In this document: positions 5,441 through 61,248 of the stretch, piece after piece
Layout of the letters: each line of letters starts with the position of its first letter
Position numbering within the stretch: the stretch's first letter is position 1
Assembly: GCF_037893015.1 (NCBI RefSeq)
Contig: NC_133660.1
Coordinates: 281,977,067-282,041,066 of the forward strand
Reading direction: 5' to 3'
Source: Macrotis lagotis
Lineage: Eukaryota > Chordata > Mammalia > Peramelemorphia > Peramelidae
DNA: 64,000 nt
The notes under the pieces: model-generated
Told to the model about the DNA's origin: nothing
Seen by the model: only the letters and a program-made list of their open reading frames with translations
Databases searched by the model: none
Made by a program: the position numbers and the translations under genes

Positions 5441-6190
5441 CCGAACCGCAGGAGCGCGCTGCTCCTCCGAGGCGAGTCCGGGGCTGCTGGCTGGGGACAC
5501 CCAGAGACCCCCCCTGCCCCCCGGCTCGGGCCCTCTCTCGATGCCTGGCCTGCCACTGCCCGAGCCCCTCCCTGCGGGGCCCCCGGAGGCAGCTCAGCCC
5601 CGGCCCCGGCCCTGGTCCTGACCCCGGTCCGGCCGCTGCCCAGGTCCCTTCCCTCCTGGGCCCCGGCCCCGGCCCCCGGCCCCGGCCCTGGTCCTGCCCG
5701 AGTCCCCTCCCTCCCGGGCTCCGGGAGCCGGTTCAGCCCCGGCCCCGGCCCCGGTCCTGCCACTGCCCGAGGCCCTTCCCTCCTGGGCCCCCGGAGGCAG
5801 CTCAGCCCCGGCCCCGGCCCTGGTCCTGACCCCGGTCCTGCCACTGCCCAGGTCCCGTCCCTCCTGGGCCCCGGCCCCGGCCCCGGCCCCGGCGGCCCCA
5901 CAGAGGCTGCGCCGCGGGCGGACTCACCGGGCGGCAGGCAAGTCTGGCGGCGGCGGGCGCGGCGAGCCGGCCTCGCGGGCAGCCTGGCAGACGAATGCGC
6001 CGCAGTCAGGGACGCTGCCCAAAAGAGCTGGCGGGGAGGGGGCAGCGGGCGCGCGCGCGCGGGCCCGCGCCTCCGCGGCCCCGCCTCCAGCCCGGCTCCG
6101 CAGGCCCCCGGAGGAGCTCGGAGCGCCCGGGCGGGACCCCACGCGGGACCCCACGCGGGACGCGTCCTCACCCCCCCCCCGGCCAAGTCT
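5441..6190 (-). promoter_or_regulatory. Candidate 5' non-coding exon(s) of SYT12
   Basis: The two minus-strand donors in the island mark possible alternative first exons. In human, SYT12 follows C11orf86 in the same orientation at about 45 kb; here the island follows C11orf86 in the same orientation at about 53 kb. I found no SYT12 coding exon in the window, so coding would lie below position 1. The assignment is by synteny alone. Confidence 0.4.
5578..5905. repeat. GC-rich minisatellite inside the CpG island
   Basis: About five units of 60-80 bases are built from 'cagccccggccccggccctg', 'tcctgccactgcccaggtcc' and 'cttccctcctgggcccc', with partial higher-order alternation. It accounts for the proline/alanine/glycine-rich open frames on both strands. 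Confidence 0.85.
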
Positions 6191-6394: not shown

Positions 6395-7615
6395 TGAGAT
6401 AGGATCTGATGGGATGTCACATAACATGGCATGTTCTGATGTGATACACGTGCCATGACACGGTATGATCTGGTGTGATGCGCGTGGCATGACAAGGTAT
6501 GATCTGATACATGTGACATGACAAGGTACGATCTGGTGTGATGCGCGTGGCATGACAAGGTATGATCTGATACATGTGACATGACAGGGTGTGATCTGGT
6601 GTGATGTGTGTGACATGACAAGGTATGATCTGGTGTGATACACATGACATGAGAAAGTATGATCTGGTGTGATACATATGACACAACAGGGTATGATCTG
6701 ATGTGATGCACGTGACATGACAAGGTGTGATCTGGTGTGATACACGTGTCATTATACACGTGACATGAGAAGGTATGATCTGATGTGATACACGTGACAT
6801 GACAAGATATGATCTGGTGTGATCCGGGCAATGTGATATGAGCTGATGTGATTGTGTGTGACATGACACAGCATGATCTGATGTGTCACAATTAACATGA
6901 CAGGGTATGGTCTGGTGTGATACACATGACATGGCAAGGTATGATCTGGTGCGATACACGTAACATGACAGGGTGTGATCTGGTGTGATACACGTGACAT
7001 GACAAGGTATGATCTGGTGTGATACACATAACACGACAAGGTATGATATGGTGTGATACACGTGACATGACAGGGTGTGATCTGGTGTGATACACATGAC
7101 ATGAGAAGATATGATCTGGTGTGATCCATGCAATGTGACAAGATATGATCTGATGTGATTATATGTGACACAACAAGATATGATCTGATGTGGCATGTGA
7201 TATGACAAGATGTGATCTGATGCGATACACATGCCAAGATATGATCTGGTGTGATCCATGCAATGTGATAAGATATGAGCTGATGTGATTATGTGTGACA
7301 TGACACAGCATGATCTGATGTGTCACAATTAACATGACAGGGTGTGATCTGGTGTGATACACGTGACATGACAAGGTATGATCTGGTGTGATACACATAA
7401 CACGACAAGGTATGATCTGGTGTGATACACGTGACATGACAGGGTGTGATCTGATGTGATACACATGACATGAGAAGATATGATCTGGTGTGATTATATG
7501 TGACACAACAAGATATGATCTGATGTGGCATGTGATATGACAAGATGTGATCTGATGCGATACACATGCCAAGATATGATCTGGTGTGACACATGTGATA
7601 TGACCAGATATGATC
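6395..7615. repeat. Minisatellite, unit about 34 bp
   Basis: Units follow 'gtgtgatacacgtgacatga' + 'caaggtatgatctg' with point differences. Larger blocks repeat too: 'cacaattaacatgacaggg' recurs at an offset of 437 bases, and a 'gatctgatgtggcatgtgat' block at 335. Nine copies carry the palindrome CACGTG (6447, 6709, 6743, 6757, 6791, 6991, 7059, 7360, 7428). The array starts about 45 bases from the poly-C edge of the CpG island. Confidence 0.95.
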
Positions 7616-8049
7616 TGTGGAGCAATGTGAGCGAATGCAGGAGAAAGTCTTTATTAAGTGGCAACTTAATAAATAAATAATAGCTCTAACCCAGTGATGT
7701 GTCTTGGTCTTCTTTCATAAGGAAGAACAAGGACCAGCCAACTGATTTACTGAATCATTCTGAGTGTCCAGGCCAGCACTACGGCTTGGCGATTCAAATA
7801 CAGAAGCCAGCTCCTACCCTCAGGAAGCTTCCATTCTAACAACAGGGTGCAATCCTGTAAGGGAATGGGGACCAGCCAAGTGGGAAGTCCCATGAAAACC
7901 AAGTCAATTCATGGCGAAATCTATGAACAAGTCTTCTGAACAAGAAATGGTAACTTTTAGCTGAAAGTAGGGTGATGGAATCCTCAGCCTAGAGCAGGGG
8001 TGGGGAACCTTTCTTCTGTCAACCCCATTTGGATATTTATAACATCATT

Positions 8050-18849: not shown

Positions 18850-20387
18850 GGGCACTCGGGCAGTTTTACAGTGGACTTGGGTTAACAAGCAAATTGAGCA
18901 GATCATTTCTCCTCCTGGTCTCAGTTTCCCTGTTACACCAGAAGGTTGACCTGAATGGCCTTTGATTTCCTTATCTAGAGACCTAGGCTGCTACAATTTT
19001 GTGATTCTATGAATCTGAAGATTCACATGGAACCTCCAGGGGTCTGAGTGAAGCCTACACCAGAAGGGTTCTGTAGACTAAGCAGAACCAGAAAACCATG
19101 ATGATGATCCCTGTAACCTCCTCTGCCCTTCAGCACAGGAGAACACAGAGAAGAGCTCCTGGCCAGCTCCTCCTCCAGTGGTGGCCCAAGGGCAGTGGTA
19201 GAAGTTGGAAAGAGGCCAGGAGAAAGTTCTAGCACCATCTCCAAATGAAAAGGGTTGTCTTGGGAGGTAGCAAACTACCCATCACTGGGGCTCTCCGAGC
19301 AGAGGCCAGGTAAACATTTTAGCAAATTTAGGGGAGAGTCTGATTCAGGTATTGGGGGGAATCTAGATATCTCTGAGACTGTCCATTTCTGAGGGTCTTC
19401 CTCAGCTTGATTCATTGGAAATATTCTTCCTCAAAGTTCAGCCGAGATGCCCCTCCTTCATGAAGCCTTCCACGATTCCCTCCACCATTAAACTCTGACC
19501 CAAAAATATTTTCACCCTTCCCAGATTTTCCCAGAGTATTTTGTTTGGATCTCTCCTTAGGTCCGAAAGTAGTTCAGTTCCAACTCTCCTTTTGGGACTT
19601 CCAACAAAAAACCCTTTAATCTCTCTGGGCTTCACTTTCCTCATCAGAAAAATGGGAGAGTCGGAGCAGGGGATCTTCCAGTTCTAAATCTCAGGTTCTT
19701 TGCTGCCCACTACCCCCACTATGGATTTGACCCTCCATCCCTCATTGCTGTGGACCTGTCCACTATATGATGAGCTTTTGGGGGGGCAAACATCAGGCAG
19801 GGGGATGAGGGATTGGGAATGCTTGGTAAAACAAGGTGCTTCTCCTTATGTCTCTAGCATTGAGTGCAGGACCTTGTAATTGAATTCAATTCAGTTTCAT
19901 TTTATTCAGTTCCCACTGTATTGCAAGGTTCAGTGTGAGGAGACAAAGGACATAATCCCTCTTCGATTAGTACCTGGTAGACAATAAATGTATATGGGAT
20001 TGGAAGCAGGGAGGGAAGCTGTCCAAGGTTCCACGACAGTTAGAATTAACTGTAAGAGATGGGCTTAGGAACAATGTTGTCCCAGAAGGCCCTCAGGGGA
20101 ATCACAGTTGATGGGGGTCCAGGGACTCCCTGGTGCTAACAGATTGGTCCCTGAGAATAGAAGCAGAGCATCTGGGGTGGAAGAGCACAGACTTCCTGTT
20201 TCATTCTCCCAAGGAGTTCCCTGGCTTCTGGCAGACAGGGCAGGTGGATGGGTACCATGGGGACTAGCCCCCAAGGTGGGAGAAGGTAATGAGGCAGTCT
20301 GTGCTCAGAGCCAAAGGTTCTTTTGATGGGGAGTTTGGGGTGAAGAGACCAAACTGAGTTCAGTGCTGGGACTGTATCTGAGAGAAA
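18850..20387. other. Non-coding upstream flank of the four-helix gene
   Basis: Contains MIR and L2 scraps and a T/G-rich stretch; no CpG island and no convincing TATA box within 500 bases of the ATG at 20520. Confidence 0.5.
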
Positions 20388-20519
20388 ATGGAGATCATAC
20401 CCCATTTCCTGGAGGAGAGATCCTTGAAAACTTCCTCAGAGACTGGGACCCGTGCTCCCACTTGCCCCACTCATATCCAATATTCTATTTCCAAGAGGAA
20501 TCTGTTGAACCTTAGGGTC

Positions 20520-20688
20520 ATGGCTGTCTCCCTCACCATCCTGAGCTGGCTCCTTATGTTTGTGGTCTGCACCAATCATGGGTGGGTCACCCTAGAACAT
20601 TCTCAAATGGAAATTTTTGTGAACCAGACCTTGAACTTTGCTCTCTGGGATAACTGTCTCAAGTGTCTAGTTCCCGGAAAAATGCCAG
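20520..20688 (+). CDS. Exon 1 of the four-helix gene
   Basis: It encodes 56 residues plus one base: the first hydrophobic helix and most of the first extracellular loop with N35, ALW and two cysteines. The donor is CAG/GTAAGC. The reading frame is open upstream to at least 20388. Confidence 0.7.
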
Positions 20689-23600
20689 GTAAGCCATATG
20701 GATTCTGTATCAAAGGAGCGAAGGTTTGAGCAAGTTTGGGCTGAGTCCTCCTAGCATGAGGGACTTGGGCAAGGTTAGGTTATTGAAGTCCCAAGGGGAA
20801 GAAACTTTCTCAAAGTCATTCAGCTAGGAAGTGGAAAAGCTGGGAAGTAGGGTGCTCAGAGAGGACTAGTACCTCTGATGGGAGGGCTGTGAAGCCCTTC
20901 TTAGGATTGCTCATCCACCCTGAATGATCACCACCCAACTCTTACCTAGGTCTTCAAGAAGCTATAACATGCAGAGTAACCTATCTGGAAAACCATTTCA
21001 GCAGATAGGTTGAGGCTAACCAAGGGGTCTCAAACCCTTCAGTGAGTTTGGGGAGTGCCTATCCTAAGCATGTGAAGACTTCCCTTCATGGAATGAGCAG
21101 ATGAGAACGATGTATTCCAGTGGCTATGAAGCAGAAGCTGTGGAGCACTTAGAGTTGGGTCGGACTATTTATGGACTAAAGATCTGTGATGCTTTGCAAG
21201 CTACATTGATTAGTGATAAGGACATGATCTTGGAGGGATGGGCTGAACACTTGGCCAGTGATCTTGACAAACCATCGTTAATCATTGCCGAAGGCATTGC
21301 CATTCTACCTCAGGTAGAAGTAAAGTCCTCTCTAGTCAAACCTCCAACTGAAGAAGAGGTTTAGAATGCCACCAGGTTCCTCCTCTGTGGCAAAGTATCC
21401 GGTACTGATTCTATCTCAACAGACAGTTACGAGGCAGGGAGTCTACTGCTCAAACAAAAACTAAGAACTTTTCCCAAATTTCCTGTCAAGAGGAGGCTGT
21501 CCTCCAGGATTTCAAGAATGCCTCCACTGTCCATCTCTATGAAGGGTTGTCCCATGACAGTCACAGTAGGGTCTCTCTCTTAGTCACTGCTGGCAAGATG
21601 CTTGTTCTCTGATCTTTCACCAGGAACATAGTTTACTATCTGAGAGCCAGTGTGGTTTCAGAAAAAAGACCGAGGAACAAGCAATATGATGCTTGCTCCC
21701 TAACAACTCCAGGAGAAACACCAGGAACAGAACCCAGGTCTAACAACATTCATTGATCTAACCAAGGTCTTTGATCCATAAGGGCTTTGGAAAATTATGT
21801 CAGAATTTGGTTACCCAGAGAAGTTCATCAGTATTGCATATCAATTTCATGATGGTGTGCTTGCCCGGGTTCCGAATAGTGGACAAGGGTCTCATGCTTT
21901 CCCAGTCACCAAGGAAGTGAAGCAAGGCTGGGCACTTGCTTCCATACTTTTTATGATGTTTTCTGCAATGGCAGATACCTTCAATGAGCAACAAAATCAG
22001 CTACTACACTGATAGGAAATTATTTAGCTTGAAAAGGCTATAAGCCTAGATTAAAATGGAGGGAGAGTTGGTGCGTGACTTTTTGTTCACAGATGATTGT
22101 TCATTTAGTGTAGCTTCTCAGGTTGAGGTGCAACAAAGTGTAAATCAATTCTCTGCTGCTTGTACTAATTTTGACCCAACAATTAACACTAAGGAAGCAG
22201 AGGTTCTCTACTAGCCAGCACCACACCATTCATTCCATCACTATAGCAAATGGAGAAATATTTAATGCTATGCTTAAGTTCACTTGGCTTGGCAGTGTGC
22301 TTTCCAGGAATGTACACGTAGATGTTGAGGTTGAAACACCCATTGCCAGAGCTGGCTCAGTGTTTGGAAGGCTCCGAAGAAAAGTATGGGGGAGAAGAGG
22401 GATTAGACTGACCACCAAACTGAAGGTCTACAGAACCATTGTGCTGACCTCACTGCTGTATGCCCATGAAACCTGGACAGTCTACTAGTGTCATGTCAGG
22501 AAACTGAATCACATCCATCTGACTTGTCTTAGGAAGATTCTGAAGATCACTTAGCAGAAGCTACCAGACATTGAGGTCCTTTCTCGGGCCGAACTACCAA
22601 GCATTCCAACTCTATTGCAGAAAGTGCAACTTCGATGGGCCAGCCACATTGTTTGAATGTGAAGCCAACATTTGCCTAACAAACTATTTTATGGTGAACT
22701 CTCACAAGGCAAGCCCTCATCCAGAGGTCAGAAGAAGCTCTACAAGGATACTCTCAAGAACTTTGGAATCGATTGTGAGACATGGGCAATGCTAGCAAAG
22801 TTTAGCATGGCCTGCACACACCAAAGAAAGCTCTGTGCTCCATAAGAAATGTGAGATGCACAAATTTAGAGACATCTCCACTCAAAATGTTCACGTGACT
22901 GGTTGTGCCCAACCTATGGTGGAGTCTTCCAAGCTTGTATTGCTCTGATCAACCACAGTCAGATCCACTGAACCCTGACCTTGACATAATGAGGCCATTT
23001 GGGTTCTCTGTGAGAACAAAGGATGACAACCCAGAAGAGCTGGGTCTAAAACCCAGGAGTCCTGTTTTCAAGTCCAACACCCTGAGTCAATTGCCCATCC
23101 AGTCAATTCCCTATTCATAACATCTCTCAAACGCAAATACACAACCCTCTCTCCTCTGTCACTGCCACAACCAGGTACAACCCCCCCTTCTGGTCATGTC
23201 TGACCATGGCAATGGTTGCTGGGGGGAGGGATATGCTTGCCCCAAGTCTCTCCCCACTCCAGTCCCACCTCCACTCAAATCCCTCTTCCTAGAAGGGGAC
23301 CATCCCATCCTGATTCTCTCTATTCCATCTCCCTTTCCTGACATTTCCCCTGACTGTCCCATTGCCCTAGGTCCTTCCCCCAGCTTCTCCAACTTCCCTC
23401 AAGGTTCAGCTATCATCTGACCTTCTGAAAGATACCTTGGCACACTCTTCAAGTTCATGTCTTCCCTTGGAGGTGACCCTCAGGTCATCCTGTCCAGAAC
23501 TTATATATCCATAGTTGTTGGTTTGTTCTTTCCCCTAGGGGACAGTGAACTCCTTGAGGGCAGGGGCTGACTTGGTTAGAAATAGGTGCTTCCTGAATTC

Positions 23601-26600
23601 TGTGGATCTCTGGGACAACTTCTGTTTCTCTTACAGTTTTCCTCTTCATGTCTCGAGGGCTCATGTTTCTGAACCTGATCTTCACAACCCTTCTCATTAT
23701 CTCCATGTTATGCTCCTTTCGAAGAATGTTCAGTCGTATTTCCAAGTTGGATTTCATCTTCTCCATCTCAAACTACGTCTCAGGTTCTGAATGGTGGAAG
23801 GCAGGGCCTGGACCTGGGAGGCGGCAAGGAGGGCCAAGCATCATGGATAGATGCTTCCTACCATAGGAAGTTGCTGTACCATAAGAAGACCAAGTAGATT
23901 ATTTATCTTAAAGACATGCAGGGATAGAGAAGAAGGGAGGGAGAGAGACAGAGTCAGAGATGTGGGGAGAAAGGGAGAGACAGAGGTATTCAGAGACAAA
24001 GGGATGTGCTGTGGGAGAGAGAGAAAGAGACAAACAGAGATAGAGATCAAGACAGATAGAGATAGGCAGCCAGAGACAGAGACAAGAGACAAAGACAAAA
24101 GATGTGGGAAGACAAGTAGACAGACTGAAAGAGACAGAGATAGTCAGAAATAGGAGGAGGGAGATATAGAGAGATAGGGAGAAAGAGAGAAGGAAGAAGA
24201 GAGAAAAGCAGAGACAGAGACAGATGGGGGAGAGAGAGAGAGAGAGAGCTAAAATTTTTATTGTGATCCAAGGACTGAGAGTATAAATGCAGGCAACCAA
24301 GATAGTGTTTGCCCTCAAGAAGCTTACACTGTTCTAAAGAAGAGCTGGAGACTGGGGAGCTGTTCTGCAGAAGATCTGGAAGGGAAGTGGAGGCTGGATC
24401 TGGGCAGAAGAAGGCAGAGTAGTGAGGAGAAAGTAGCATTAGGGAATAGAATAGAGGCTGCCTCCACTAGAGTGCCTGGATGGCATTCTGGAAATGTCAA
24501 TACCATTATTATAATAGAATCACCTAAGCAGCAAAGTGTCACAGTGGTCAGAGGCCCTGGACATGAGATCAGAAAGGCATATCTATAACTAGACCCCAGC
24601 TTTCTCTTCTCCCCCTACCATAGGCTGACTTCTCTTTAACAGGGAGATGACCCTGCTTGGGCTTTGGGCATTGGATTCCCTCCCTGCCCAACTTCCCCTA
24701 CTCTTTGCCCAGATCTACCTTCTGCACCACCCCCATTCTCCTCCCTTCTCTTAGAATTGTTTCTAATTGTAGTTGCAAGCTCCTTGAGGGCAAGCCAGTC
24801 TTAGGCATTTCCTAGCTGTGTGACCTTGGGCAAGTCACTTACCTGCTGTCTGCCTCAGTTTCCTCATCTGTACCAATAGAAATGATCCTAGCACCTGTTT
24901 CCTAAATTTGTTTTGAGTATAAATTGGGATATTTAGAAAAACAGTAGAAAAATGCTAGCTATTATTATTGTCTTCACTTGACAATTGAGGAAACTGAGAC
25001 CCAAAGCAGGAAAGTCACTGGCCAATCAGTGGCAAAGCTAAACCTAGAAGCCAACTCTCTGGTTCTCTCCATTCTGTGGTTGCTGGGACACCCCAGCAGA
25101 ATAGCCAGCTGATATGCTGGCAGAAATTGAGGTGCCCAAAGCTCCCCCACTCCCTCTTGGCTTGCAGGAGAGCCAGATAGAATGGTACTTTTCACCTGCC
25201 GTGTGACGGAGTGAAAGGAGAAGGGAACTGGTTGTGCCACTAATACAACAGGCAGTTCTCCTTCTCTGAGCCTCAGTTTATCCATCAGTAAAAAGATGTT
25301 CAAAGGATTTTCAAGCTGAAAGGGACCCTAGGGATCTTCCAATTCAATATCCTCATTTTACTGATGAGGAAACTGAAGTCCAGAGGGAACAAAGATCTTT
25401 GCTCAGGGTCACTTGGTAGTCAGCGTGCTCAGTTTGTCCACCTATAAAATGGGGCTAAGTTTACCTTGCACTACCTCTCTTAGAGGTTTATTGGAGGTTT
25501 TTATATGAATGAGCTATTGATAATTGTCATTATCATTTTCCTGGAGGTGGGGAGTGATAAGGGGGTGGGTGGCTGTAGGAGAGAGCCCCTGGACTCCTCT
25601 CCTTAGGGCTTTCCCCTCTTCCTTTTCCTCTCCCCATGCCCACCTGGCTTTCCCCAGAGATTTACTTTTGTCTGAGGGCCACAGTAAAGGAGTTCAGAAG
25701 TAGGTGGGGTGATGGGTGTCCTTTTTTTAGGTAATACATTTACTTCTTAACAGGAACCTTCCCGAGACATTGGCAACAGCACTTGAGGCCAGTGGAAGAG
25801 ATCGTTTGGGTAGCCAGGGTCTTGGGCACCCTTGTAATCTCCTGGGAGCCTCCAGATCACTCAGGAAGTGGTGTGGCTGGTTTCTCCCAGGGAATTGACT
25901 CTGGGGAGGGACTTCCAGAAAAAGGTCCCCCTCTTTAGTCCCCTGGCTCTACTGAGGAAGGGTTGGATGGGGAGGAGATTTGGAAGCTGCCAGCCTGCCT
26001 CCAGTTTGGGGATCTTGGGCCCAGAGCCTGGTTGGGGAGAGGCTGGAGGCTCCTTGTGCTCAGCTCCCCAGGGAGTGCCCTTGCTTTTGTGTGTCTGGGA
26101 CTAGGACTGACCATGTTCCTGAGCATCTTGCTGTTTGGGCTGCAAGTAATGGAAATCTTCTCCCAGGAAGGGCGGAACTTCCACTTCAAGTGGCCCATCT
26201 ATCTCTCTGGCTTCGGGGTCTTGTGTTTCATCGGGGCTGGTGAGGGTCAGATATAAGGAAACCAGGGCTAGGCCTGGGCCCCTCAGAGCAGTGGGGAACC
26301 AAGGAGCAGAGAGACCCCCAAGAAGACTCTTTAGGGTAATTTTGCCCCATCCCTCACATCCCTGTTAAGTCCTAGAGCAAGGATTCCTCCCTGTTTGTCC
26401 TGAGGGTCAAAGATTCATAGAGGTAAGAGCTAGGAGGGGCCTTAAAACCTAGAACACAGATGGTCTGAACAAGAAGAGGCCTCAGAAACTAGAACCCCAA
26501 CTGATCTGGGAGAGGTCTTAGAACATAAAGCACTGAATGTTAAAATTGGGAGGACCCAGGGTGGTTAGGTGGTGTAGTCAGGAGGACCTGAGTTCAAATC

Positions 26601-27006
26601 CAGCCTCAGACACTGAATAATTACCTAGCTGTGTCACCTTGGACAAGTCACTTAACCATATTGCCTTACAAAAACCAAAAAAAAAAAAAAGAATTGGGAG
26701 GACCCTTTTTGAGAAGCCACATTGCACCAGCTGACCCAGGTCTTCATCAGCTTCATCAGACAGCCCTAGTCTCCCATCGAAACCTGATGTCTCCTCCTTC
26801 TTCCTGTAGGGACCATCTGTTTCAACAGTCACAGACATGCCTGGAGTATATCCTTTCTCTTTCCTAAGCAGCTGATCACCGAATCCAAGAATCAGGTACT
26901 AACTGAAAACTTAGGAAAGCAATCAGCTTCATCAGGCTTCCATCGGGATTTGATCACCTCTTCATCCATGACTGCTATACTCCACTCCGAAGACTTAATC
27001 AAGTGA
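20520..27006 (+). CDS. Four-exon four-helix membrane protein, TMEM225/claudin-PMP22-like
   Basis: Coding exons are 20520-20688, 23637-23783, 26105-26239 and 26810-27006, joined at GT/AG introns that are all phase 1, giving 215 residues. Predicted helices lie at about 4-20, 60-82, 107-124 and 133-154. The first loop has an N-glycosylation site (NQT, N35) and W22...ALW(41-43)..C46..C49, the claudin/PMP22 superfamily signature. Length, four coding exons and layout resemble TMEM225, a 225-residue sperm protein that inhibits protein phosphatase 1; I see no clear RVxF phosphatase-binding motif in the tail here. An in-frame ATG at 20388 would add 44 residues. The 20520 ATG was preferred because it places the first helix at the N-terminus, but the upstream one cannot be excluded. 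The last exon may be longer or spliced again at 26898 (CAG/GTACTA). The gene is intact as read. Family membership is fairly sure; orthology and expression are inference. Confidence 0.72.
20955..23035 (+). mobile_element. RTE-like non-LTR retrotransposon (LINE), decayed, in intron 1
   Basis: Frame pieces match the reverse transcriptase of a widespread RTE-like LINE. At 21797-22012 is FPVTKEVKQG and MMFSAM; at about 22073-22110 FLFTDDCS stands where the F/YADD catalytic box is expected; at 22283-22488 are VFGRLRRKVWGRRGIRL and TKLKVYRTIVLTSLLYA. It has several stops and frame changes, and the box reads TDD. The 3' end 'gagaacaaaggatgacaacc' resembles the tail of the Mar-type SINEs. It lies sense-oriented in intron 1 of the four-helix gene. 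The clade name is from memory of related proteins. Confidence 0.8.
23130..23610 (+). mobile_element. L2 LINE 3' end
   Basis: 'gtctgaccatggcaatggtt' ... 'ccccaagtctctccccactc' ... 'gtgaactccttgagggcagg' is the L2 3' UTR order. It ends immediately before exon 2 of the four-helix gene. Confidence 0.7.
23637..23783 (+). CDS. Exon 2 of the four-helix gene
   Basis: It is 147 bases long, preceded by a pyrimidine-rich acceptor (tctgtttctcttacag) and followed by CAG/GTTCTG. It encodes the second helix (residues about 60-82) and a basic cytoplasmic segment (FRRMFSRISK). The upstream flank is an L2 3' end, so the acceptor sits right next to repeat sequence. Confidence 0.7.
23925..24250 (+). repeat. Purine-rich simple-sequence tract
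   Basis: About 325 bases of degenerate (gagaca)n/(gaga)n lie in intron 2. The opposite-strand Leu/Ser-rich open frames here are artefacts of it. Confidence 0.9.
24575..24796 (+). repeat. Local duplication, copy A (intron 2)
   Basis: Nearly 90 percent alike, by eye, to 27026-27252 in the same orientation, 2.45 kb away: shared blocks 'ctagaccccagctttct', 'ccataggctg', 'ccctgcttgggctttgg' and 'cattctcctcccttct'. The 3' part is L2-like. Confidence 0.75.
24800..24965 (+). mobile_element. MIR-family SINE
   Basis: 'cctagctgtgtgaccttggg' 'caagtcactta' ... 'tgctagctattattattg' is a sense MIR. Confidence 0.8.
26105..26239 (+). CDS. Exon 3 of the four-helix gene
   Basis: It is 135 bases long, with acceptor gggactag and donor CTG/GTGAGG. 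It encodes the third helix (LTMFLSILLFGLQVMEIF), a short loop and the fourth helix up to residue 150. The open frame upstream of the acceptor is not needed to explain the protein. Confidence 0.7.
26558..26691 (+). mobile_element. WSINE1-like SINE in intron 3
   Basis: The target duplication aattgggaggaccc is perfect on both sides (26544-26557, 26692-26705). About 20 bases of the head are missing inside. Confidence 0.9.
26810..27006 (+). CDS. Exon 4 of the four-helix gene with stop
   Basis: The acceptor is ccttcttcctgtag. It encodes the end of helix 4 and a polar cytoplasmic tail of about 60 residues, ending in TGA at 27004-27006. The proximal part (TICFNSHRHAWS) continues the family pattern. 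The distal tail is rich in Ser/Thr and unrecognised, so the true 3' end of the coding region is the least certain part. Confidence 0.6.
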
Positions 27007-27025
27007 CTTTTTACCCCTTTTTGAG

Positions 27026-27252
27026 AGGCATCTCTATACCTAGACCCCAGCTTTCTTTTTTCTCCTTACCATAGGCTGCCTTCTCTTTAACAGAGAGATG
27101 GCCCTGCTTGGGCTTTGGATCCCCTCCTTGTCCAAATTCCCCTACTTTTTGCCAAGATCTACCCTCTGCCCTACCTCCATTCTCCTCCCTTCTGTTAGAA
27201 TTGTTTCTGTCCTCTCTAGCTTTGTAGGCTGTAAGCTCCTTTAGGGCAAGCC
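27026..27252 (+). repeat. Local duplication, copy B (3' UTR)
   Basis: It begins 20 bases after the stop codon of the four-helix gene and would form most of its 3' UTR. It runs on into an L2 3' end that supplies the AATAAA at 27326. Confidence 0.75.
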
Positions 27253-27325
27253 CTGGGTCACAACTATCTTCATTTCCCCATTATCAAGTATTCCATCTTG
27301 CATAGTAGACATTTAGTAACTGTGG

Positions 27326-27331
27326 AATAAA
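27326..27331 (+). terminator. Candidate polyadenylation signal of the four-helix gene
   Basis: An AATAAA lies 320 bases after the stop codon, at the end of L2-derived sequence and just before a SINE. It is a plausible repeat-supplied poly(A) signal; no transcript evidence is available here. Confidence 0.35.
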
Positions 27332-27363
27332 TGAACCATGGCTGACATTTTTACAGTACTCTT

Positions 27364-36949: not shown

Positions 36950-37026
36950 TGTTTGTGAGAGATAAGGGGGGGTAGGGGGAGAGAGAGACAGACAAAGAGG
37001 AAGAGAATGAAAGTGGAAGAGAGAGG

Positions 37027-37078
<52 letters not shown>

Positions 37079-37186
37079 AAGAAAGGAAGAGAGAAAGAGA
37101 GGAAGAGACAGAGACAGAGACAAAAAGACAGACAAAAAGAGGAAGAGAGAATGAGAGTAGAAGAGAGAGAGGAAGGGAGAGGGGTG

Positions 37187-37255
<69 letters not shown>

Positions 37256-59544: not shown

Positions 59545-59655
59545 TCAGCTGGCAGCATCCTCTGGAGGACTAGGGGACGTTGAGCGGCTGAGGGTCACCC
59601 CTGGGAGGTTGGCCACAAAGTTCCCCCATGTTCTTCTCAGAGCGTAATCCATCTG
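59545..59655 (-). CDS. C11orf86: C11orf86 exon 2 with NAGNAG acceptor
   Basis: The acceptor reads cccccagcag, so either CAG can serve and the protein would contain or lack Q117. The exon encodes QMDYALRRTWGNFVANLPG and then VTLSRSTSPSPPEDAAS plus stop. Confidence 0.82.
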   Translation of the reverse strand, partial: QMDYALRRTWGNFVANLPGVTLSRSTSPSPPEDAAS

Positions 59656-61248
59656 CTGGGGGACAGAGAGGGAGGAGATGATCAGGAGAGAGAAACTGAG
59701 TCCAAGGGGAAAACTGGGGAAGACTGAGTGGTCTCAGATAGTCTTCCTTTAAAAGTACCAGGTAGTGCTAGGGAGCCAAAGCAAGATGCTGCCCTTACCC
59801 CTCCTTTTTTTTTTTTTAAGGTTTTTTTGCAAGGCAAATGGGGTTAAGTGGCCTGCCCAAGGCCACACAGCTAGGTCATTATTAAGTGTCTGAGACCGGA
59901 TTTGAGCCCAGGTACTCCTGACTCCAGGGCCGGTGCTCTATCCACTACGCCACCTAGCCGCCCCTTGCCCTTACCCCTCCTGATAAACTCTCCCTCCACT
60001 TCAATATGAGCTAGCTGAGCATCAGTATCCTCATCTGTCAAATGGGCCTTACAAGCCAGGATTGTTATGCAACGAGGGGAAAGATTCCTAGACAGAGGTC
60101 TAGCTGTGCTAGGGGATGTTGGCAGTCATTTAGACCTTCGGTTCTTCTACCCAGGGGCCTGAGTGTGAATGTCGGCTGGTTGGCCTTTGACCTCTCCAGG
60201 CTTTCATTTCCTCAGCTGTCAAACCAAGGATGCAGGGGAGGCAACTTTCCCTCCTGAATCCTGGGATGCTCAGCTTGAATGAGCTCATAGGTGAAAAGCA
60301 CTTTGCAAACAGGAATTCGTTTGAGGTATCAGTTGGGATTCATTCAAATGATGTTGTGAATGAGCCTGATTACAGGAGAACTGTCCCTGGAGGACTAGAG
60401 AATTTTCTAGAGGGGTCAGGACCCCCCCCAATAAATCCACTAGAAGAACAACAATAGGGGCGGCTAGGTGGCGCAGTGGATAGAGCACCGGCCTTGGAGT
60501 CAGGAGGACCTGGGTTCAAATCCGGTCTCAGACACGTAATAATTACCAGCTGTGTGGCCTTGGGCAGGCCACTTGACCCCGTTTGCCTTGCAAAAAGACA
60601 AAGCTAGAAGAACAACAATGGCTCCTATTCACAGACTACTTATACATAATATATTCGATGAGTCTGGCTTGTCTCTGAGCCTCAGTGTTGACATCTGTGA
60701 AGTTGTTCTGCTTACTTTCCCAGGGTTGGGTGAGGAAGCTTTGTATAGAGGGATTCAGGCTTGTCGCACCTGCTGGCCAGGGAAACTGGGGCCTGTAGGC
60801 CTCTCTGTCTCATGGCCCCGGAGGGGGCGCTGTGGCTCCCTGAGAAGAAGGGACCCTTCCCAGCCCCTCTCCTCTCCTCTTCTTGCCCCCCAACACTTAC
60901 CTTCTTGTACTGTCGTATTCTCTGCTTCCCCTGATTCTTGCTTTGGATTAGTTGTTCTGTGTCTTCCTGGCTCCCAAGGGGGACTTCATGAGGAGAAGGA
61001 GGAGGAGGAGGAGGAGGAGGAGGATTCAGGTCTTCAGGAGGGTCAAAACTGGATTCCAGGTCCCGGCAGCGAGGCTTCTCTCTACGGTGCCGGAAGCTTA
61101 GGGACCTCCGGAAATGGGGGACCTGCTGGTGGGCTTTAGGGACTAGGGGGCTCTGCCCCTTATATTCTGAGGACTCTCCATACAGCTCCTGGAGTTTGCC
61201 ATAGGAGGCTCGGCGGACCCTAAGGGACTGGCTACGAGTGGTCACCAT
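59545..61248 (-). CDS. C11orf86: Orthologue of human C11orf86, two coding exons
   Basis: Exon 1 (61248 down to 60901) gives 116 residues and ends in a consensus donor AAG/GTAAGT. Exon 2 (59655 down to 59545) gives 36 residues and the stop, for 152 in total. The N-terminus (SQSLR..RASYGKLQE), the block EDTEQLIQ and the C-terminal WxxFVAxxPxVTLSxxxSP pattern match my memory of the human protein, which is about 115 residues. The extra length is mostly residues 26-45 and a run of nine prolines (77-84 and neighbours) encoded by a GGA-type repeat. The protein is small, basic and of unknown function, with no helices or signal peptide. The ATG has a G at -3 and +4. The intron (59656-60900) holds two oppositely oriented SINEs. 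Recognition rests on recalled sequence, not a search. Confidence 0.85.
59806..59966 (-). mobile_element. WSINE1-like SINE in C11orf86 intron
   Basis: The perfect 15-base duplication gcccttacccctcct lies at 59791-59805 and 59967-59981. It is in sense orientation relative to C11orf86. Confidence 0.95.
60456..60603 (+). mobile_element. WSINE1-like SINE in C11orf86 intron, recent
   Basis: The perfect 16-base duplication ctagaagaacaacaat lies at 60440-60455 and 60604-60619. Its opposite orientation to the SINE at 59806 makes an inverted pair. Confidence 0.95.
60901..61248 (-). CDS. C11orf86: C11orf86 exon 1
   Basis: It is 348 bases long and phase 0 at its end. It contains the conserved SQSLR and SYGKLQE motifs, an Arg-rich segment (FRRSLSFRHRREKPR) and a proline run before EDTEQLIQ. 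The opposite strand is also open here by coincidence and is not taken as a gene. Confidence 0.85.

Follow-up and report, generated by a model that had tools for sequence, protein, structure and literature searches.

Genomic context of the candidate gene

The DNA analysed here is a stretch of 64,000 nucleotides from the bilby Macrotis lagotis (C3:281977067-282041066, hereafter the window), which carries on its plus strand a four-exon candidate gene (20388/20520-27006) lying between C11orf86, also named FACI, and SYT12 (Table 1). On one side, C11orf86 is recognized by a match of its first piece to Pfam DUF4633 (E 1.3e-9) and by tblastn matches of both pieces with a human query (E 2.5e-9 and 0.002). 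On the other side, seven SYT12 pieces found by tblastn, all on the minus strand and 62-93% identical, are located within 30 kb left of the window, and the piece with the start codon (11 residues, E 0.08 alone) lies approximately 1 kb beyond the left edge; no SYT12 coding exon was detected inside the window at E<=1 by tblastn with a human query. The placement between these two genes given in the initial annotation is therefore confirmed from both directions. According to the initial annotation, no coding gene is known in the human C11orf86-SYT12 interval.

Several repeats mark the remainder of the window. A GC-rich 69-base tandem repeat (5549-5892) lies within a presumed CpG island, in which long open frames occur on both strands. 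An array of a 34-base tandem unit (6419-7617, approximately 36 copies, 72% matches), whose second part shows a 335-base higher-order period, adjoins a GC-rich stretch that is possibly the SYT12 promoter. A long imperfect GA repeat (period 2, 72% matches) is found at 36979-37255. Rfam gave no match over the whole window at the gathering threshold.

Table 1. Positions of the candidate gene's parts and of C11orf86 in the window
Feature	Position	Strand	Remarks
Optional N-terminal extension (44 codons) or part of the exon 1 5'UTR	20388-20519	+	In-frame stop upstream at 20379-20381
Coding portion of exon 1 (169 nt): TM1 and first extracellular loop (NQT sequon, LWDNCLKC)	20520-20688	+	
Exon 2 (147 nt): TM2	23637-23783	+	
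Exon 3 (135 nt): TM3, second loop, most of TM4	26105-26239	+	Length equal to that of TMEM225 exon 3
Exon 4, coding part: end of TM4, cytoplasmic tail	26810-27006	+	Stop TGA 27004-27006
Presumed 3'UTR	27007-27331	+	Ends in AATAAA 27326-27331
C11orf86 (FACI)	59572-61236	-	Coding pieces 61236-60898 and 59640-59572; Pfam DUF4633, tblastn

Gene model and predicted protein

The candidate has GT and AG at all six splice junctions, three introns that are all in phase 1, and a frame that stays open to a TGA stop over 215 codons from the ATG at 20520 or 259 codons from the ATG at 20388, in agreement with the four-exon structure and intact 215-residue frame first proposed. The shorter form fits better, because its first methionine (20520) is paired with residue 4 when aligned to the bilby TMEM225 protein introduced below, in which the 44-codon extension has no counterpart. 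When splice sites are ranked by a weighted score, the exon 1 donor (CAG/GTAAGC) is among the best 0.2% of all GTs in the window, the exon 2 and exon 4 acceptors fall in the top 1.7% and 0.1% of its AGs, respectively, and all five sites other than the exon 2 donor lie in the top 0.1-11%. The exon 2 donor (CAG/GTTCTG) stands in a poor context, with a score of -4.0 that is equalled or exceeded by 44% of the window's GTs. The description of the splice sites as canonical thus holds for the dinucleotides at all six positions, but not for the context of this donor.

Downstream of the stop codon, the AATAAA at 27326 is the sole AATAAA or ATTAAA within 1.5 kb. A repeat of approximately 190 bases (88-90% identity) is shared by intron 2 (24572-24764) and the presumed 3'UTR (27023-27208); it resembles LINE-2-type 3' ends and may supply the AATAAA, which is weak evidence because it looks like part of such an element. 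No direct repeat of at least 18 bases, as expected of an internal duplication feeding exon 4, was present in 26600-27350. Intron 1 apparently contains a decayed retrotransposon (21060-22950) that is RTE-like by eye, and the one frame searched within it (22144-22488) gave only an unrelated Pfam match (E 0.16).

In 19-residue windows, the hydropathy of the encoded protein peaks four times (values 1.85-2.29), corresponding to four predicted transmembrane helices. A single N-glycosylation sequon, NQT, is located in the first loop together with W...LWDNCLKC, so that the helices, the glycosylation site and the W...LWxxC..C loop of the initial annotation are all recovered. No match to an RVxF-type PP1-docking motif was found in the protein.

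Homology to TMEM225

A search of the bilby genome with the Pfam family TM225 (PF25452) revealed TMEM225 at C1:649.04 Mb as the sole clear gene, with a spliced product scoring 131.3 bits, which aligns nearly end to end with human TMEM225 at 94 bits. An olfactory-receptor-like frame, judged by its MAYDRY motif, is located approximately 24 kb away, and human TMEM225 also lies near an olfactory-receptor gene.

Compared with this bilby protein by BLASTP (composition correction off), the candidate gives 48.9 bits over 160 columns at 22% identity, alignment to TMEM225 having been suggested as a check. The local alignment score of 118 was reached by none of 10,000 shuffles that preserve hydropathy class (mean 39.7, SD 8.3, maximum 101), by none of 10,000 full shuffles, and by none of 20,000 decoy four-exon chains drawn from the window (mean 30.1, maximum 64); the decoy chains combine exons chosen by GT/AG alone, whatever their splice strength (151 first, 721 middle, and 1097 last), and are not independent of one another. 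Against human TMEM225, the candidate scores 20 bits, a score reached by 3 of 1000 class shuffles.

Pfam provides weaker support in the same direction. The 259-residue form matches TM225 with 21 bits (E 3.6e-4), the 215-residue form with 18.9 bits, and exons 2-4 alone with 17 bits (E 0.0065), all below the curated cut-off of 27 bits, and the match covers nearly the full domain in order (residues 43-203 on profile positions 8-163 of 165). Exon 1 alone matched no Pfam family. None of five reversed or shuffled controls matched TM225; since one of them reached an unrelated Pfam family at E 0.0075, the TM225 match is weak when taken alone.

The exon layout was compared as well. Both genes have four coding exons and phase-1 introns throughout, and the coding lengths of exons 1-3 are 169, 147, and 135 nt in the candidate versus 169, 150, and 135 nt in bilby TMEM225. 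Introns 2 and 3 fall within glycines (106/107 and 151/152), each pair in one alignment column by both BLASTP and pairwise MAFFT and both in phase 1, so that two of the three positions coincide exactly in pairwise alignment; intron 1 is in phase 1 in both genes and lies in a gapped loop, where the columns differ. In a three-way MAFFT alignment that includes human TMEM225, only intron 2 remains aligned and the region after TM3 is scattered; the pairwise alignments are preferred because the three-way alignment misplaces the C-terminal part.

Given this exon layout and a score unmatched by shuffles or decoys, the sequence comparisons indicate that the candidate is real and that it is a divergent TMEM225 paralogue, as the initial annotation had surmised in assigning it to the TMEM225 group. 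Because the Pfam cut-off is not reached, we do not file it as a member of PF25452 and treat it as a homologue on the grounds of the alignment and the intron positions. Beyond the shared four-pass domain, the two proteins differ: the candidate has the NQT sequon and W-x2-C-x2-C in loop 1, no sequon and no W..C occur in residues 1-60 of bilby TMEM225, and the genes reside on different chromosomes and encode different tails, that of the candidate without RVxF. Human TMEM225 carries an RVxF-type PP1-docking motif at its C-terminus; the bilby TMEM225 tail, ending in RQVTKAL, also lacks the F/W position of that motif.

TMEM225-group genes in the bilby genome

Searched exon by exon with PF25452, the bilby genome yielded 20 matches at E<=10, of which 17 were under the cut-off, and TMEM225 is the only gene above it. 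In 10 of these 17 sites, inspected by eye over the middle 480 bases in three frames (one site being partly N), no TM225-like exon was seen. The bilby TMEM225 protein gave six non-self matches, the best at E 0.65, and no second gene. A search for a retrocopy of the candidate mRNA revealed none, the next best match having E 0.08, and the three of its five non-self matches that were read contained no TM225-like exon. Exon by exon and at E<=10, the candidate itself went undetected both with PF25452 and with the bilby TMEM225 protein as query. This exposes a blind spot: a gene that is under the Pfam cut-off and undetected as separate exons was secured only by splicing and by comparison with a paralogue from its own genome.

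These results bear on whether the candidate might be the marsupial counterpart of TMEM225B at another place, rather than a third member of the family. We take the neighbourhood of BUD31, located at C9:142.86 Mb in the bilby, to be where TMEM225B would be expected, and the ATP5MF family occurs at two places in the genome. With only TMEM225 above the cut-off and no separate TMEM225B seen, two bilby genes would balance the two named eutherian ones. However, in cattle TMEM225B is placed at a chromosome 25 locus that also names ZNF655 and ZNF789 (PMC12837429), and not with SYT12, and a diverged bilby TMEM225B could escape detection because the same searches missed the candidate. Such a counterpart is considered unlikely, although it fares best among the alternatives to a separate paralogue.

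Constraint and decay

In neutral simulations, with transitions assumed at 2:1 and indels at 0.1 per substitution, the frame and splice dinucleotides of the candidate remained intact in 1 of 5000 runs at 0.1 substitutions per site and in approximately 18% at 0.02 substitutions per site. These values imply that the candidate was constrained until recently at least. Codon usage fails to separate the candidate exons from open non-coding stretches (p = 0.47 or 0.33 for exon 1, depending on the start, and 0.19, 0.13, and 0.39 for exons 2-4; 0.11-0.58 over two measures), and being uninformative for all of these exons, it was dropped as support. As a control, C11orf86 scored 14.8 in frame and negatively in the other frames, values obtained without a null distribution.

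A gene that died recently, with its frame still open, its exon 2 donor decayed and no functional mRNA made in the bilby, would account for the poor context of that donor, for the flat codon statistics, and for survival of the model at the lower divergence. Against this, the other five splice sites rank well, in bilby TMEM225, too, the exon 2 donor ranks lowest among the three (score 0.3), and the model contains no stop, frameshift, or lost GT/AG. Recent death is thus quite improbable, and a coding gene remains the preferred reading.

Relation to claudins and PMP22

All seven PDB matches of the candidate at E<=10 are claudin-3 or claudin-4, the best at E 0.011, and a profile built from the two bilby proteins matched claudin-4 only (four of four matches, E 5-7). 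The likeness to claudin-4 and claudin-3 (PDB 5b2g, 6ake, and others) resides in TM1 and in the W...LWxxC of loop 1, and exons 2-4 alone touch the Pfam family PMP22_Claudin (E 0.53, 10.6 bits). The claudin loop 1 motif is W-x17-22-W-x2-C-x8-10-C, and claudin C-termini carry a PDZ-binding end. In the candidate, W-x20-W-x2-C is present, but the next cysteine follows at C-x2-C, and the tail ends in LIK, unlike a PDZ-binding end; for the whole protein, moreover, Pfam returns TM225 at 21 bits and no claudin family at E<=10. The earlier label of claudin-like therefore survives at the superfamily level but not as family membership, which is rejected on the cysteine spacing, and it is highly improbable that the candidate is a true claudin or PMP22/EMP protein of cell junctions. 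The sugar site of PMP22 lies in loop 1. PMP22 is absent among the seven PDB matches. Like the predicted product of the candidate, PMP22 is described as a four-pass glycoprotein (PMC8191293).

A chance chain of open frames, with which the uninformative codon usage and the ability of class-shuffled proteins to reach unrelated Pfam families (E down to 0.0075) would agree, has a negligible probability and is refuted in practice by the TMEM225 alignment, the shuffles, the decoys, and the matching intron positions.

Age and proposed role

To bilby TMEM225, human TMEM225 scores 94 bits versus 49 for the candidate. Unless the candidate evolves fast, this suggests that it probably separated from TMEM225 before marsupials and eutherians diverged. 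Taken jointly, we hold with reasonable confidence that the locus contains a coding four-exon gene of the claudin/PMP22-like superfamily, which is related to TMEM225 as a paralogue, strongly diverged and probably ancient, and which likely encodes a four-pass scaffold of the male germ line. While gene structure, homology, and synteny in this reading come from the comparisons above, the germ-line role is drawn by analogy with TMEM225.

TMEM225 is reported to be testis-specific and, in mice, needed for sperm maturation, the knockout mouse being male-infertile (PMC10875271), and a link to PP1-gamma-2 has been proposed (PMC7249385). For TMEM225B, in turn, reports connect the gene with traits of sperm motility and fertility (PMC7249385, PMC12837429). 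By analogy, the most likely role of the candidate would be that of a small scaffold with four membrane passes, located in the sperm membrane or in late male germ cells, where its loops would organise neighbouring proteins; PP1 docking would not be expected, because the tail has no RVxF motif. No literature joining TMEM225 with marsupials was found, and none of the records joining any two of SYT12, C11orf86, and marsupials concerned the candidate gene in its title or the start of its abstract.

A more tentative, though plausible, reading is that the TMEM225 group had three members in the marsupial/eutherian ancestor, and that marsupials retained the third one between C11orf86 and SYT12 while the lineage leading to humans lost it. 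If so, marsupials would keep a sperm-membrane protein that is missing in humans. The existence of a diverged sister gene sharing the exon layout would mean that early mammals had a larger TMEM225 group, and it would provide a candidate sperm protein particular to marsupial reproduction.
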